From positions 1 through 64,000 of the forward strand of contig JAPPHZ010000044.1 in NCBI GenBank assembly GCA_028820935.1: DNA of 64,000 nucleotides, given 5' to 3'. The translations under genes and the position numbers were made by a program. Below the pieces are notes generated by a model. The model saw only the letters and a list, made by a program, of their open reading frames with translations, searched no databases and was not told the DNA's origin. Source of the stretch: a bacterium. Lineage in GTDB: Bacteria; Actinomycetota; Acidimicrobiia; Spongiisociales; Spongiisociaceae. Shown here in pieces: positions 38,841-43,337 of this stretch; position 1 is the stretch's first letter; the number at the start of each line of letters is the position of its first letter.

Positions 38841-40034
38841 TCAAGACAAGCGGTCGTTGACGAGGCGGGCCGTGTCCCGGGCTATCAGGGATTCCTCGTC
38901 GGTGGGGATCACCAGGATGTCAACAGGGCCGGCGTCGGTGGAGATGCGCCTCTCCCCCTCGCCACGGTTACGGGCGGGATCCACGACCAGGCCCAGCGTC
39001 TCCAGACCGCTCAGGATGAGGTGGCGAACCTCATGGCTGTTCTCCCCGATGCCGCCGGATAAGACCACCCCGTCGCACGGCGCCACCTGAACCAGGAAGG
39101 CGCCTAGGTACCGGCGGACCCGGTGGGCGAAGGTCTCCACGGCCAGAGCGGCAGCCGGATCGCCGGCCCGGGCGCGGCGGGCAACCCGGCGAAAGTCGGA
39201 CGATGTCCCGCTCAGGCCGAGTAGACCTCCCTCCCTCTGGAGCCCTCGCCGGATCTCGGAGACAGGCAACCCGGCCTCCAGGAGGTGGAACACCACCGCC
39301 GGATCGATGTCGCCGCTCCGGGTGCCCATTACCAGCCCCTCCAACGGCGTCATCCCCATGGAAGTGTCGACTGCCTTCCCGTCCCGGATGGCGCATGCCG
39401 AGGCTCCGGCGCCGAGATGCAGGGTCACAAGGTTGGGTCGGGAGTTTTCCAGCAACCGGCCGGCTCGCTCCGCCAGGTACCGGTGGCTGATCCCGTGGAA
39501 CCCGTAACGCCTCACCCCGAAGTCCCGCCACCAGCGCTCGGGGACCGCGTACCGGTAGGCGTGCGGGGGGAGCGTGGAGAAGAAGGCGGTGTCGAATACC
39601 GCCACGCCCACCGCTCCCGGCAGGAGCTCGCGGGCGGCCCGGATACCCGCCAGGTTGGCCGGGTTGTGGAGCGGGGCGAGTGTGCCCAGGGACTCGACCT
39701 CCGCGATGACCGAGCGGTCGATGACCACGGACTCGGCAAAACGGTCACCTCCGTGCACGACCCGGTGGCCCACCCCCACGATCTCGGCCGGGTCGCCGAT
39801 CGCCGGTGGAGACCCCCACCCGGCCAGGGCCTCCACGATCGCCGCCACCCCCTGCCGGTAGTCCCCGACCTCCAGTTCGACCTCATACTCCCGGTCCCCC
39901 GCAGTGTGGAGGTGTCTCGGCAGATCCCCACCGACGCCATCGATGATCCCACCCGCGAGGAGATCCTCCGGCCCCTGCCCGTACAGCTTGTACTTGATCG
40001 ACGAGCTACCGCAGTTGATAACCAGTACTGGCAT
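38841..40034 (-). CDS. ackA: Acetate kinase
   Basis: This 397-residue ASKHA-fold enzyme has the N-terminal VINCGSSSIKYKLY (5-18), GHRVVHGG, VAVFDTAFFSTLP, YRYAVPERWWRDFGVRRYGFHG, and HLGAGASACAIRDGKAVDTSMGM (split over about 205-227). It interconverts acetyl phosphate and acetate with ADP/ATP. No phosphotransacetylase is nearby. Instead it lies 43 nt downstream of the UGSC selenoprotein on the same strand. In glycine-reductase systems, selenoprotein-derived acetyl phosphate is used by acetate kinase, so the pairing is suggestive. Confidence 0.93.
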   Translation of the reverse strand: MPVLVINCGSSSIKYKLYGQGPEDLLAGGIIDGVGGDLPRHLHTAGDREYEVELEVGDYRQGVAAIVEALAGWGSPPAIGDPAEIVGVGHRVVHGGDRFAESVVIDRSVIAEVESLGTLAPLHNPANLAGIRAARELLPGAVGVAVFDTAFFSTLPPHAYRYAVPERWWRDFGVRRYGFHGISHRYLAERAGRLLENSRPNLVTLHLGAGASACAIRDGKAVDTSMGMTPLEGLVMGTRSGDIDPAVVFHLLEAGLPVSEIRRGLQREGGLLGLSGTSSDFRRVARRARAGDPAAALAVETFAHRVRRYLGAFLVQVAPCDGVVLSGGIGENSHEVRHLILSGLETLGLVVDPARNRGEGERRISTDAGPVDILVIPTDEESLIARDTARLVNDRLS

Positions 40035-40077: not shown

Positions 40078-40593
40078 TTATCCGGCCGTCAACGCGTCGA
40101 GGATGGCGGGAAAGGCCGCTTCGGCGAGAGCCCCCATCTCCTCGTCGGTCCGCTGCTGGATCGGATGGTCGGTGAGCACCCGGAGGGGGTGCATGCCCAG
40201 AGCCTTGCCTTGCGCGTCGGCCGCCTGCGCGAAGCGGTCGGAAGCCACGAAAACGCCCGGCACGCCCAGGTCTTCCAGATCGACTATGTCGTGCACACTG
40301 CACGACGCGCAGGAGCCTCAGTCGGCCAGGGCTTCGATCACCGCCCCGCATTCGGCGGCGATCTGCCGGCGAAGGTCGAGCGGCGCCGGCTTGGAGAAGG
40401 TGGGCTTGCGATAGTGCCGCACCGCCACCCCCATCTCGGTCAGCAGTTCGTCCAGCCTCCTGAGGAACACGTCACCACGAGGCTTGGAGATATCCAGCAG
40501 GCCGACCGTTCCGGTCGCGATGTCGGCGGGACGAGGGCTGATGGGCCGCTCCCCGGTGGTTCTCTCGCTGGTCGGATCCAACAGTGTCGTCAT
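40078..40593 (-). CDS. UGSC-motif selenoprotein (in-frame UGA = Sec92)
   Basis: Two same-frame ORFs are separated only by TGA at 40318-40320. Read through, they give a 171-residue protein with ALAD-Sec-GSCASCSVHDI in the middle, the defining motif of the UGSC (seleno)protein family. The N-terminal GTVGLLDISKPRGDVFLRRL and RKPTFSKPAP segments, and the downstream GVPGVFVASDRF, fit that family in both halves. A SECIS-like hairpin begins 11 nt after the UGA. AGGGG precedes the ATG. It sits 9 nt after a thioredoxin-like partner gene and just before ackA. A redox role is inferred from Sec and CxxC; the reaction is unknown. Confidence 0.88.
40288..40306 (-). promoter_or_regulatory. SECIS-like hairpin directly after the UGA codon
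   Basis: In the transcript, GUCGUGCA pairs with UGCACGAC (8 perfect base pairs) around a three-base GUG loop. The stem starts 11 nt after the UGA and the loop lies at positions 23-25 counted from its U. Bacterial SECIS elements sit at this distance and carry a G at the start of the apical loop for SelB binding. It lies inside the coding sequence for ASCSVHD. Confidence 0.75.
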
Positions 40594-40602
40594 GAAGCAC
40601 CC

Positions 40603-42045
40603 CTAATGGTCGATCGCCACGGTGGTTATCTCCGAGCCGGCCCTGCCACCGACCCAGCCCGAGATTATCGCCGAGAATCCTCCCGCGTCCCCGCCCGCAT
40701 GGACGAACCACAGACCTTCGGGGCCGAACTTCGGAATCTCCTCCCGCCGGTCCGCCAGCCAGGGCGGCATGCCCTCGGCTGCCCCGCCCGCCCCGGCCAC
40801 CATCTCCGAGGTCGGCAGCGTGAGCAGCGAGTGGATCTCCTCGCCCAGACGGGCCTTCGTCCAACCCGCCCGCCGAAAGAGCCGGGCATGTTCGGGGGAG
40901 ACTACGACGATCGCTTCGGACATTCCCGCCAGCTTCGGGTGCGCGACCATCCGCAGCTGCAGCGCCAGGGTCCTGGCGAGCGACTCGGGAGTGCGGGACT
41001 TCTGGTCGACCACCTCGATCGGTCCGTGGGCGGCGAAGAGCGTAACCGTGGACTCCTCGGGCGCGAAGCCCCGCTGGACGGCCAGAGACTCCCAGGGAGA
41101 GCCTTCCTCGTCCTCCGGGAAACAGAACGCGAGCTTGCTCGGGCTGCCGAAGGTCGCCTGATCGACTCCACCGGGACGGGCGCCGCCGACGTTGCGGACC
41201 ACCAGGTTGAGAGCCCGCCCGATGGTGAGGTTGGCCCGGTTGCCCTGGCCGAGCACGTTGACTCCCGAGTTCATCCCGATCTGCCTCCGCACCGGCCCGT
41301 TGACGATCAGCACCGGCCCTGAGAAATAGGTGGTGGCCGACACCCCGTGGATGTTGAAACCGCGCCCGGCCGCCGCCTCCACCGCGGCCAGCACCACCGG
41401 CAGGTATTCGGGCCGGCAGCCGGCCATCACCGCGTTGATAGCCACCTTCTCCACCGTGCATTCGGCCAGATCGGGTGGGAGGGTGCATAGCACCTGGTCG
41501 GGAGGAAGATCGGTGCCCTCCAGCATCCGCGCCACCCGCTCCTCGGTCGGAGGAACGACAGGAAGGCCGTCCGTCCATCCCCGGGCGAAGGCGGCCTCCA
41601 CGGGATCCTCGGCAGTCCCGAGTTCGATGCGCTGCGACAACATGGCATGGGGCGAATGGCGCCGGAGAAGCCTCTGGTAGTTGTCGGGCAGCATCGTGTC
41701 CGAGCCGCATCCAGGCCGCTGTTCCGGAAGTCCGGCCCCCAGGCCGATCGCTCCGGTTACGCGTTCCCATCCGGAGCGGTACCACCCGGCCTGCTCGTCG
41801 GCCACCTCACCGTCCTCGATCCGGTACACGGTGGGGGTCGTCTCGGTATCGAGACGCCACGAGATGTCCAACTCCCCGTCGTGGACCACCTCGAAACCCT
41901 CGGGAAAGCCGGCTTGATCCTGGGAGACGATCACCACGCCGTCCTCCCGCCCGGCGATTTCAGCCAGCACGGGCACCACCAGATGGCAGGTCTCGCAGTC
42001 ATCCTTGACCACCACCAGCAATCCGTCAGCGATAGGCAGGCTCAT
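40603..42045 (-). CDS. Thioredoxin-like domain protein associated with the UGSC selenoprotein
   Basis: This 480-residue protein has an N-terminal thioredoxin-like segment, LLVVVKDDCETCHLVVPVL, with a CxxC (C17, C20). A long C-terminal region of about 350 residues is not assignable to a known enzyme by eye. It includes GWTDGLPVVPPTEERV, NAVMAGCRPEYLPVVLAAV, SATTYFSGPVLIVNGP and FVHAGGDAGGFSAII. It ends 9 nt before the selenoprotein, so the two are surely co-expressed. The arrangement suggests that its CxxC exchanges electrons with the Sec/Cys site. The C-terminal region might bind the substrate; this is inference. Confidence 0.7.
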   Translation of the reverse strand: MSLPIADGLLVVVKDDCETCHLVVPVLAEIAGREDGVVIVSQDQAGFPEGFEVVHDGELDISWRLDTETTPTVYRIEDGEVADEQAGWYRSGWERVTGAIGLGAGLPEQRPGCGSDTMLPDNYQRLLRRHSPHAMLSQRIELGTAEDPVEAAFARGWTDGLPVVPPTEERVARMLEGTDLPPDQVLCTLPPDLAECTVEKVAINAVMAGCRPEYLPVVLAAVEAAAGRGFNIHGVSATTYFSGPVLIVNGPVRRQIGMNSGVNVLGQGNRANLTIGRALNLVVRNVGGARPGGVDQATFGSPSKLAFCFPEDEEGSPWESLAVQRGFAPEESTVTLFAAHGPIEVVDQKSRTPESLARTLALQLRMVAHPKLAGMSEAIVVVSPEHARLFRRAGWTKARLGEEIHSLLTLPTSEMVAGAGGAAEGMPPWLADRREEIPKFGPEGLWFVHAGGDAGGFSAIISGWVGGRAGSEITTVAIDH

Positions 42046-42194: not shown

Positions 42195-43337
42195 ATGATG
42201 AAGCGAGCTATCCCACTCCTCAGCGTGCTGGTACTGGCGGTCCTTGCTTGCTCAGGCGACGGGGAAGCCACCACGACGCCGGCCGAGACCACAGCCACGT
42301 CCGCGGGAGAGGTGGCGACAACGGTCGCGGAGGTGACCGTGGCAACACCGCCCACCGGAGGCACCCTGGCCCGGGTTCAGAACCGCGGCGCCTTGCGTTG
42401 CGGGGTTGGCGACAGCGCGATCGGTTTCGCGGAGCCCCAGGAGGACGGCTCGTACAACGGCTTTGACGCCGACTTCTGCCGTACGGTAGCCGCCGCGATA
42501 TTCGGCGACGCCGACGCCGTGGAGTTCGTCGGCACCACCTCCGCCGAGCGGTTCACCGTGCTGGCCGCCGGCGGGGTCGACGTGCTGTTCCGTACCACCA
42601 CCTGGACCCAGAGCAGGGACACGGAGCTGGGCGGCGACTTCGGCCCCACCACCTTCTACGACGGCCAGCGGATCATGGGCAAGGCCGAACTCGGGTTCAC
42701 CGACGCATCGACGGTGGCTGACGTGGACGGCGCCCGGGTCTGCGCCAACGCCGGTACGACAACCGAGAAGAACATCACCGAAGGCGCCCGGGTTGCCGGC
42801 GCCGAGATCGAGCTGGTGACCACCGAAGGAACTCCCGAGGCGATGGAACTGTTCCGCGGAGGTTCGTGCGACCTCATCACCTCGGACGGGTCACGGCTGT
42901 TCGGTGAGCGCTTCTCGGCCGTAGCGAACGGGGAGATCAGCGAGGGCGAATGGATCATCTTCCCGAAATCCCCGATCTCGAAGGAACCCCTCGGTCCCAT
43001 GTACCGCCAGAACGACAGCCAGTGGGCGGACATCATCAACTGGACGGTGTACGCGCTGGTGATCGCCGACGAGAAGGGCATCACCTCGGCCAACGTCGAA
43101 GAGATGGTGGCGAATCCGCCCGATCCGGAGGCGGGCCGGCTACTCGGCGTGGGCGAGGACGAGCTGCAGACAAAGATGGGGCTTCCGGCCGATGCCTTCG
43201 CACAGGCCATTCGCGCGGTCGGCAACTACGACGAGATCCATGTGCGGAACCTGGGGCCTCTGGGCATCACCCGAGCCGGTTCGATCAATGCCCGGTGGAC
43301 CGAGGGCGGCCTGATCTACGCACCGCCCGCCCGCTGA
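42195..43337 (+). CDS. General amino-acid ABC transporter substrate-binding protein (AapJ/BztA-like), orphan
   Basis: This 380-residue lipoprotein has the lipobox VLAC and a Thr/Ala-rich linker. The SBP_bac_3 domain has the AapJ pattern NRGALRCGVGDSAIGF, YNGFDADFCRTVAAAIFGD, FRTTTWTQSRDTELGGDF and GGSCDLITSDGSRL. It should bind polar L-amino acids. No permease or ATPase follows, so partners must be encoded elsewhere. It is divergent from the UGSC operon with 149 nt between. Confidence 0.87.
   Translation: MMKRAIPLLSVLVLAVLACSGDGEATTTPAETTATSAGEVATTVAEVTVATPPTGGTLARVQNRGALRCGVGDSAIGFAEPQEDGSYNGFDADFCRTVAAAIFGDADAVEFVGTTSAERFTVLAAGGVDVLFRTTTWTQSRDTELGGDFGPTTFYDGQRIMGKAELGFTDASTVADVDGARVCANAGTTTEKNITEGARVAGAEIELVTTEGTPEAMELFRGGSCDLITSDGSRLFGERFSAVANGEISEGEWIIFPKSPISKEPLGPMYRQNDSQWADIINWTVYALVIADEKGITSANVEEMVANPPDPEAGRLLGVGEDELQTKMGLPADAFAQAIRAVGNYDEIHVRNLGPLGITRAGSINARWTEGGLIYAPPAR

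Follow-up and report, generated by a model that had tools for sequence, protein, structure and literature searches.

UGSC-containing selenoproteins were reported in 2008 from ocean metagenomes, and a thioredoxin fold was suggested for them (PMC2398784). A fusion protein, 'UGSC/Unknown_1', in which UGSC is joined to a conserved domain of no assigned function, is also given there. The family is modelled in Pfam (PF24696) and NCBIfam (NF041046), and was still listed without a function in 2026 in the available part of PMC13188914. No function is stated anywhere in the available text of the literature searched, which includes both of these papers. The other described proteins with which UGSC can be compared are GrdB (PF07355, TIGR01918) and PrdB (TIGR04483), which, like UGSC, have Sec within a UxxCxxC motif at the same point of an apparently homologous domain. 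In the available text of publications naming both UGSC and GrdB, no connection is drawn between them.

Here we describe a UGSC gene within a window of 64,000 nucleotides, the whole stretch of DNA analysed. Nothing in it departs from what defines the UGSC family, with which it shares a full-length match, Sec in the UGSC motif, a SECIS-like hairpin and homologues with Cys. What is added here is a partner gene, a predicted fold and a relation to GrdB and PrdB. The partner, its fusions to UGSC and the GrdB/PrdB relation make of a functionally orphan family an enzyme that can be tested.

The UGSC gene and its relatives

The gene, read from the minus strand (40593..40078), encodes a protein of 171 amino acids with Sec at residue 92 in the motif UxxCxxC (UGSCASC). 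As claimed in a preliminary description, two open reading frames (40318-40593 and 40078-40296) share one frame and are parted only by the TGA at 40318-40320, which would be selenocysteine codon 92; the minus strand is a point added here, and it makes the plus-strand translation of the region irrelevant. The read-through product (MTTLLDPT...ALADUGSCASCSVHD...LTAG) has a single TGA, with U92 within LADUGSCASC, and UGSC at residues 92-95 conforms to the [UC]GSC of the family. It matches PF24696 over its full length at 1e-43 (149.9 bits against a cut-off of 25) and NF041046, also over its full length, with 151.2 bits against a cut-off of 125, which confirms the family to which it had been assigned. 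No family besides these was found in Pfam up to E = 10 or in NCBIfam up to 0.001. Given the family matches and the earlier description, the recoding of the UGA is a new instance of an already known family. The expectation that standard annotation would miss the gene is right in that an ORF caller does split it, but NF041046 models exactly the UGSC (seleno)proteins, which have been described since 2008 (PMC2398784).

Across 84,980 species genomes, 80 UGSC loci were found, in records named Acidimicrobiia, Ilumatobacter, Pseudomonadales, Chloroflexi, Myxococcota, Deltaproteobacteria and others, the closest named records being Acidimicrobiia MAGs with 91-95% identity. Relatives read through the UGA rather than ending at it: the TGA is present at the Sec codon in all 80 loci, and it is also kept by ten full genes from genomes elsewhere in the genus, family and order. 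More distant members within the phylum (L138, L152, L156 and L157) have Cys at this position. The in-frame UGA therefore aligns with a Cys of homologues, which is a criterion for bacterial selenoproteins. One fusion of the kind described below, L159 (G229:C25), lacks both Sec and Cys at the active position, where it reads GDMGTSS.

A conserved hairpin and the selenocysteine machinery

A hairpin of eight pairs with a GUG loop, GTCGTGCA-GTG-TGCACGAC, begins 11 nt after the UGA (40288-40306, minus strand), exactly where the preliminary description had placed it. A bacterial SECIS is expected to be a stem-loop that follows the UGA directly and bears a G in its small apical loop (PMC1088965), and the GUG loop and conserved stem agree with this, though a search of Rfam matched no SECIS family to the hairpin. 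The 53-nt stretch has an ordinary folding energy (z = -0.49), so it is conservation rather than energy that argues for the hairpin. Among 67 distinct 48-mers, derived from 81 genes, the UGA is kept in every one, the weakest of the eight pairs holds in 58 and the other seven in 66-67. The pair between the third positions of Ser97 and His101 is G-C in 56, G-U in 7 and A-U in 4, and every A is matched by a U (shuffle p 0.0004, uncorrected for relatedness). Codon 97, in the stem, is only ever TCG, TCA or ACG (Thr), Ser99 is AGT in 66 of the 67 and Val100 is GTG in 64, while just outside the stem Ser94 uses five codons; two are used for Cys95. In a count over 20 sequences 98.8% of the cells were paired and three were altered on both sides; the covariation is confined to one pair and in this count is modest relative to the shuffle control (29/500). 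The pattern indicates a constraint on the hairpin over and above that on the protein sequence, at the level of codons, with one compensatory pair.

The genome from which the window comes (3.3 Mb, 51 contigs, 97% complete) had been predicted to encode SelA, SelB, SelD and tRNA-Sec elsewhere, and all four were found. The tRNA-Sec is at C14:31188-31278 (76.6 bits; tRNA-SeC(tca) according to ARAGORN); the second hit to exceed the cut-off is a serine tRNA. On contig C10 selA (429 bits) is just upstream of selB (285 bits, or 321 with its C-terminal piece). The selD gene (380 bits, C36:58143-59072, L033) has an in-frame TGA (GGGUASKLG), such that the selenophosphate synthetase would itself be a selenoprotein here. 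Judged from the sequences, it is almost certain that the UGSC gene encodes a genuine selenoprotein with UGA 92 decoded as Sec.

A near-obligate partner gene

Upstream of UGSC, and unremarked in the preliminary description, is the gene for a protein of 480 residues, P480 (40603..42045, minus strand), which ends 9 nt before the UGSC start. P480 is present at 78 of the 80 loci. At 73 of the 78 it lies upstream of UGSC in the same orientation, no more than 240 bp away, and at about 20 loci the two genes overlap by 4 nt. Ilumatobacter nonamiensis YM16-303 (L076) is a cultured bacterium with the pair. In a sample of 297 genomes from the phylum, the C-terminal domain of P480 was found in all 22 that have UGSC over the Pfam cut-off and, with a strong score, in only one further genome (hypergeometric P ~2e-32, uncorrected for phylogeny). 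Cys-containing and very divergent UGSC genes also adjoin this domain, and in L021, L025, L158 and L159 the two are in one chain. By this computation the pairing of UGSC with P480 is near-obligate. The Unknown_1 part of the published fusion is probably the same C-terminal domain. There is no conserved third gene around the pair, only lineage synteny on mixed strands, and the idea that UGSC and P480 are related to each other was rejected by profile comparison.

P480, of which the genome has one copy, has no family name in Pfam or NCBIfam and found nothing among PDB sequences. An AlphaFold2 model (pLDDT 89) suggests two domains. The first 100 residues (41746..42045, minus strand) have a thioredoxin fold, with Foldseek probability 1.00 to thioredoxin/ResA, and relatives give weak Pfam Thioredoxin/TraF matches in this domain; the cysteines of its C17-E-T-C20 motif are invariant in 46 sequences. 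The C-terminal domain (about residues 145-479; 40609..41613, minus strand), with the motif WTDGLPVVPPT, is the part that distant families have next to UGSC or in one chain with it. It has no model in Pfam or NCBIfam and so is missed by annotation. Foldseek found no confident match for this 330-residue domain, the best being fumarate hydratase (probability 0.63, TM 0.23). Among the residues conserved across 21 divergent members are Asp159, Pro162, Pro166, Thr197, Ala202, Val206, Ala208-Gly209, Ala271, Gly276-Arg277-Ala278 and Gly292, whereas Cys210 is not universal. The thioredoxin domain is absent from distant families and is therefore no universal donor.

Six genomes (G299, G231, G172, G192, G251 and G320) have matches to the thioredoxin domain of P480 with an in-frame TGA; these are probable Trx-like selenoproteins without the C-terminal domain. 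On the other side of P480 is a divergently oriented gene for an amino-acid-type ABC substrate-binding protein (42195-43337, plus strand), with no adjoining permease genes; it is beside P480 in the closest relatives only.

Predicted fold and relation to GrdB and PrdB

The AlphaFold2 model of UGSC (pLDDT 95.7) has five strands with beta and alpha elements alternating, and Sec92 is at the start of the helix that follows strand three. Its best PDB matches by Foldseek are SsuE and flavodoxin. The predicted fold is thus flavodoxin-like and lacks the topology in which thioredoxin-fold selenoproteins hold their Sec, which disagrees with the published suggestion.

When 38 diverse UGSC sequences were aligned by hhalign to 21 Sec domains of GrdB/PrdB, taken from genomes within the same class, the probability was 93.6, the E-value 2e-7 and the score 52.9, against at most 21 for 40 column-shuffled profiles. 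Sec is placed on Sec, and a downstream HP motif is also aligned. A narrow UGSC alignment gave weak similarity to GrdB/PrdB (probability 2-14), so the claim of homology rests on the diverse one; narrow-profile comparison with the PDB was uninformative. Since the PDB holds no sequence relative of GrdB or of PrdB-like proteins, the relation is one of sequence profiles, not of structures compared. On this computation UGSC would be a remote homologue of the GrdB/PrdB Sec domain.

There are also differences. UGSC is without the N-terminal part of GrdB and has no match to PF07355, TIGR01918 or TIGR04483. Its partner is P480, not GrdE or PrdA, neither of which is found beside UGSC, where the neighbours are P480 and an acetate kinase, and it has no fixed link to GrdA or GrdC/D. 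A thioredoxin-type supply of electrons may be common to both.

A possible two-component reductase

The pairing, the fusions, the relation to GrdB/PrdB and the thioredoxin domain lead us to propose a two-component seleno-reductase. UGSC and P480 would form one enzyme, electrons would pass through the thioredoxin domain of P480 and the reaction would be a reduction. In this scheme UGA 92 would be decoded as Sec by means of the hairpin and the SelA, SelB, SelD and tRNA-Sec of the genome, and a small substrate would be bound by the C-terminal domain of P480. It would be attacked there by the selenol of UGSC, which would be held at the N-terminal end of a helix in the flavodoxin-like, GrdB/PrdB-related fold. 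A selenenyl-sulfide with Cys95 (UxxC) would then form, to be reduced by the CxxC of the P480 thioredoxin domain; the Sec-Cys bond may also be reduced by thioredoxin or thioredoxin reductase. For the scheme as a whole, with the Sec-decoded UGSC as the Sec subunit, P480 as the other subunit and the cycle as set out, we think the balance tips slightly in favour.

At one distant locus (L168, G049:C2:62000-81500) there are two UGSC fusions without the thioredoxin domain, together with a thioredoxin-reductase-like gene with CASC (TIGR01292, 283 bits, below the cut-off of 343), two SsuA-like binding proteins and ABC importer genes of the SsuA/taurine/nitrate type. The content of this cluster supports what may be a catabolic use of UGSC/P480. 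Binding proteins of the SsuA/taurine/nitrate type take very different compounds.

More tentatively, and with slightly less than even confidence, UGSC and the C-terminal domain of P480 could represent a widespread, undescribed class of two-component selenoenzyme. This class would have its Sec domain in common with glycine/proline reductase, a different substrate subunit and, in the clade of the window, a built-in thioredoxin domain, and would serve to degrade an imported small molecule reductively in Acidimicrobiia, Chloroflexi, Pseudomonadales and other groups, mostly uncultured.

Of the other explanations, the one that survives best is that UGSC/P480 serves detoxification as a selenium-dependent peroxidase or disulfide reductase and is not a catabolic reductase. 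Most bacterial UxxC selenoproteins are indeed regarded as thiol-based redox proteins in the available text of PMC2398784 and PMC13188914. We nevertheless consider it unlikely, as there is no peroxiredoxin, GPx or OsmC match in Pfam or NCBIfam, and the importer genes in distant clusters fit uptake and breakdown better.

Somewhat less likely still is a glycine-reductase-like activity in which UGSC/P480 makes an acyl phosphate that the adjacent acetate kinase converts to ATP. In its favour, the kinase gene (38841..40034, minus strand) follows UGSC in the same orientation after a gap of 43 nt, and no other acetate kinase was found in the genome. UGSC also has its relation to GrdB, and the genome encodes Sec-containing GrdA and GrdB with a GrdE/GrdG-like protein. 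However, the kinase adjoins UGSC only in the window's own lineage, at 8 of the 80 loci, on which ground we rejected it as a general partner, and by PF07355 UGSC is no GrdB. As the genome has GrdA, GrdB and the GrdE/GrdG-like protein, on another contig, the kinase could serve acetyl phosphate from these proteins instead.

That UGSC acts alone as a thioredoxin-fold thiol oxidoreductase, as suggested when the family was described, with the neighbouring gene incidental, would account for the resemblance of UxxC to CxxC. This seems improbable when the predicted sheet of UGSC is five-stranded, alternating and flavodoxin-like, the thioredoxin fold is in P480 rather than in UGSC, and the partner is present in 22 of 22 genomes and fused in some. 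A true stop, whether through pseudogene, decay or sequencing error, has only the splitting of the gene by the ORF caller in its favour. The UGA is present in 80/80 loci, the genome has the complete Sec machinery, relatives carry Cys at this residue and synonymous codons are frozen within the hairpin, and this reading is to all practical intents refuted.

Other Grd- and Prd-type genes in the genome

Contig C38 (L117, L171, L178, L179) has a GrdB-type gene with an in-frame TGA (TIGR01918, 410 bits), adjoined by the GrdE/GrdG-like gene; a GrdA gene, whose TGA falls within CFVU, is some 50 kb distant. By their sequences these genes appear to constitute a glycine/sarcosine/betaine-reductase-type system in an Acidimicrobiia-related genome. 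At C50:24098-24457 (L134, L172) there is a PrdB-like selenoprotein with a UPVC motif (TIGR04483, 148 bits, below the cut-off of 300), followed by an enoyl-CoA hydratase-like gene. Similar PrdB-like genes with TGA are found in many relatives of the class (L118-L137).
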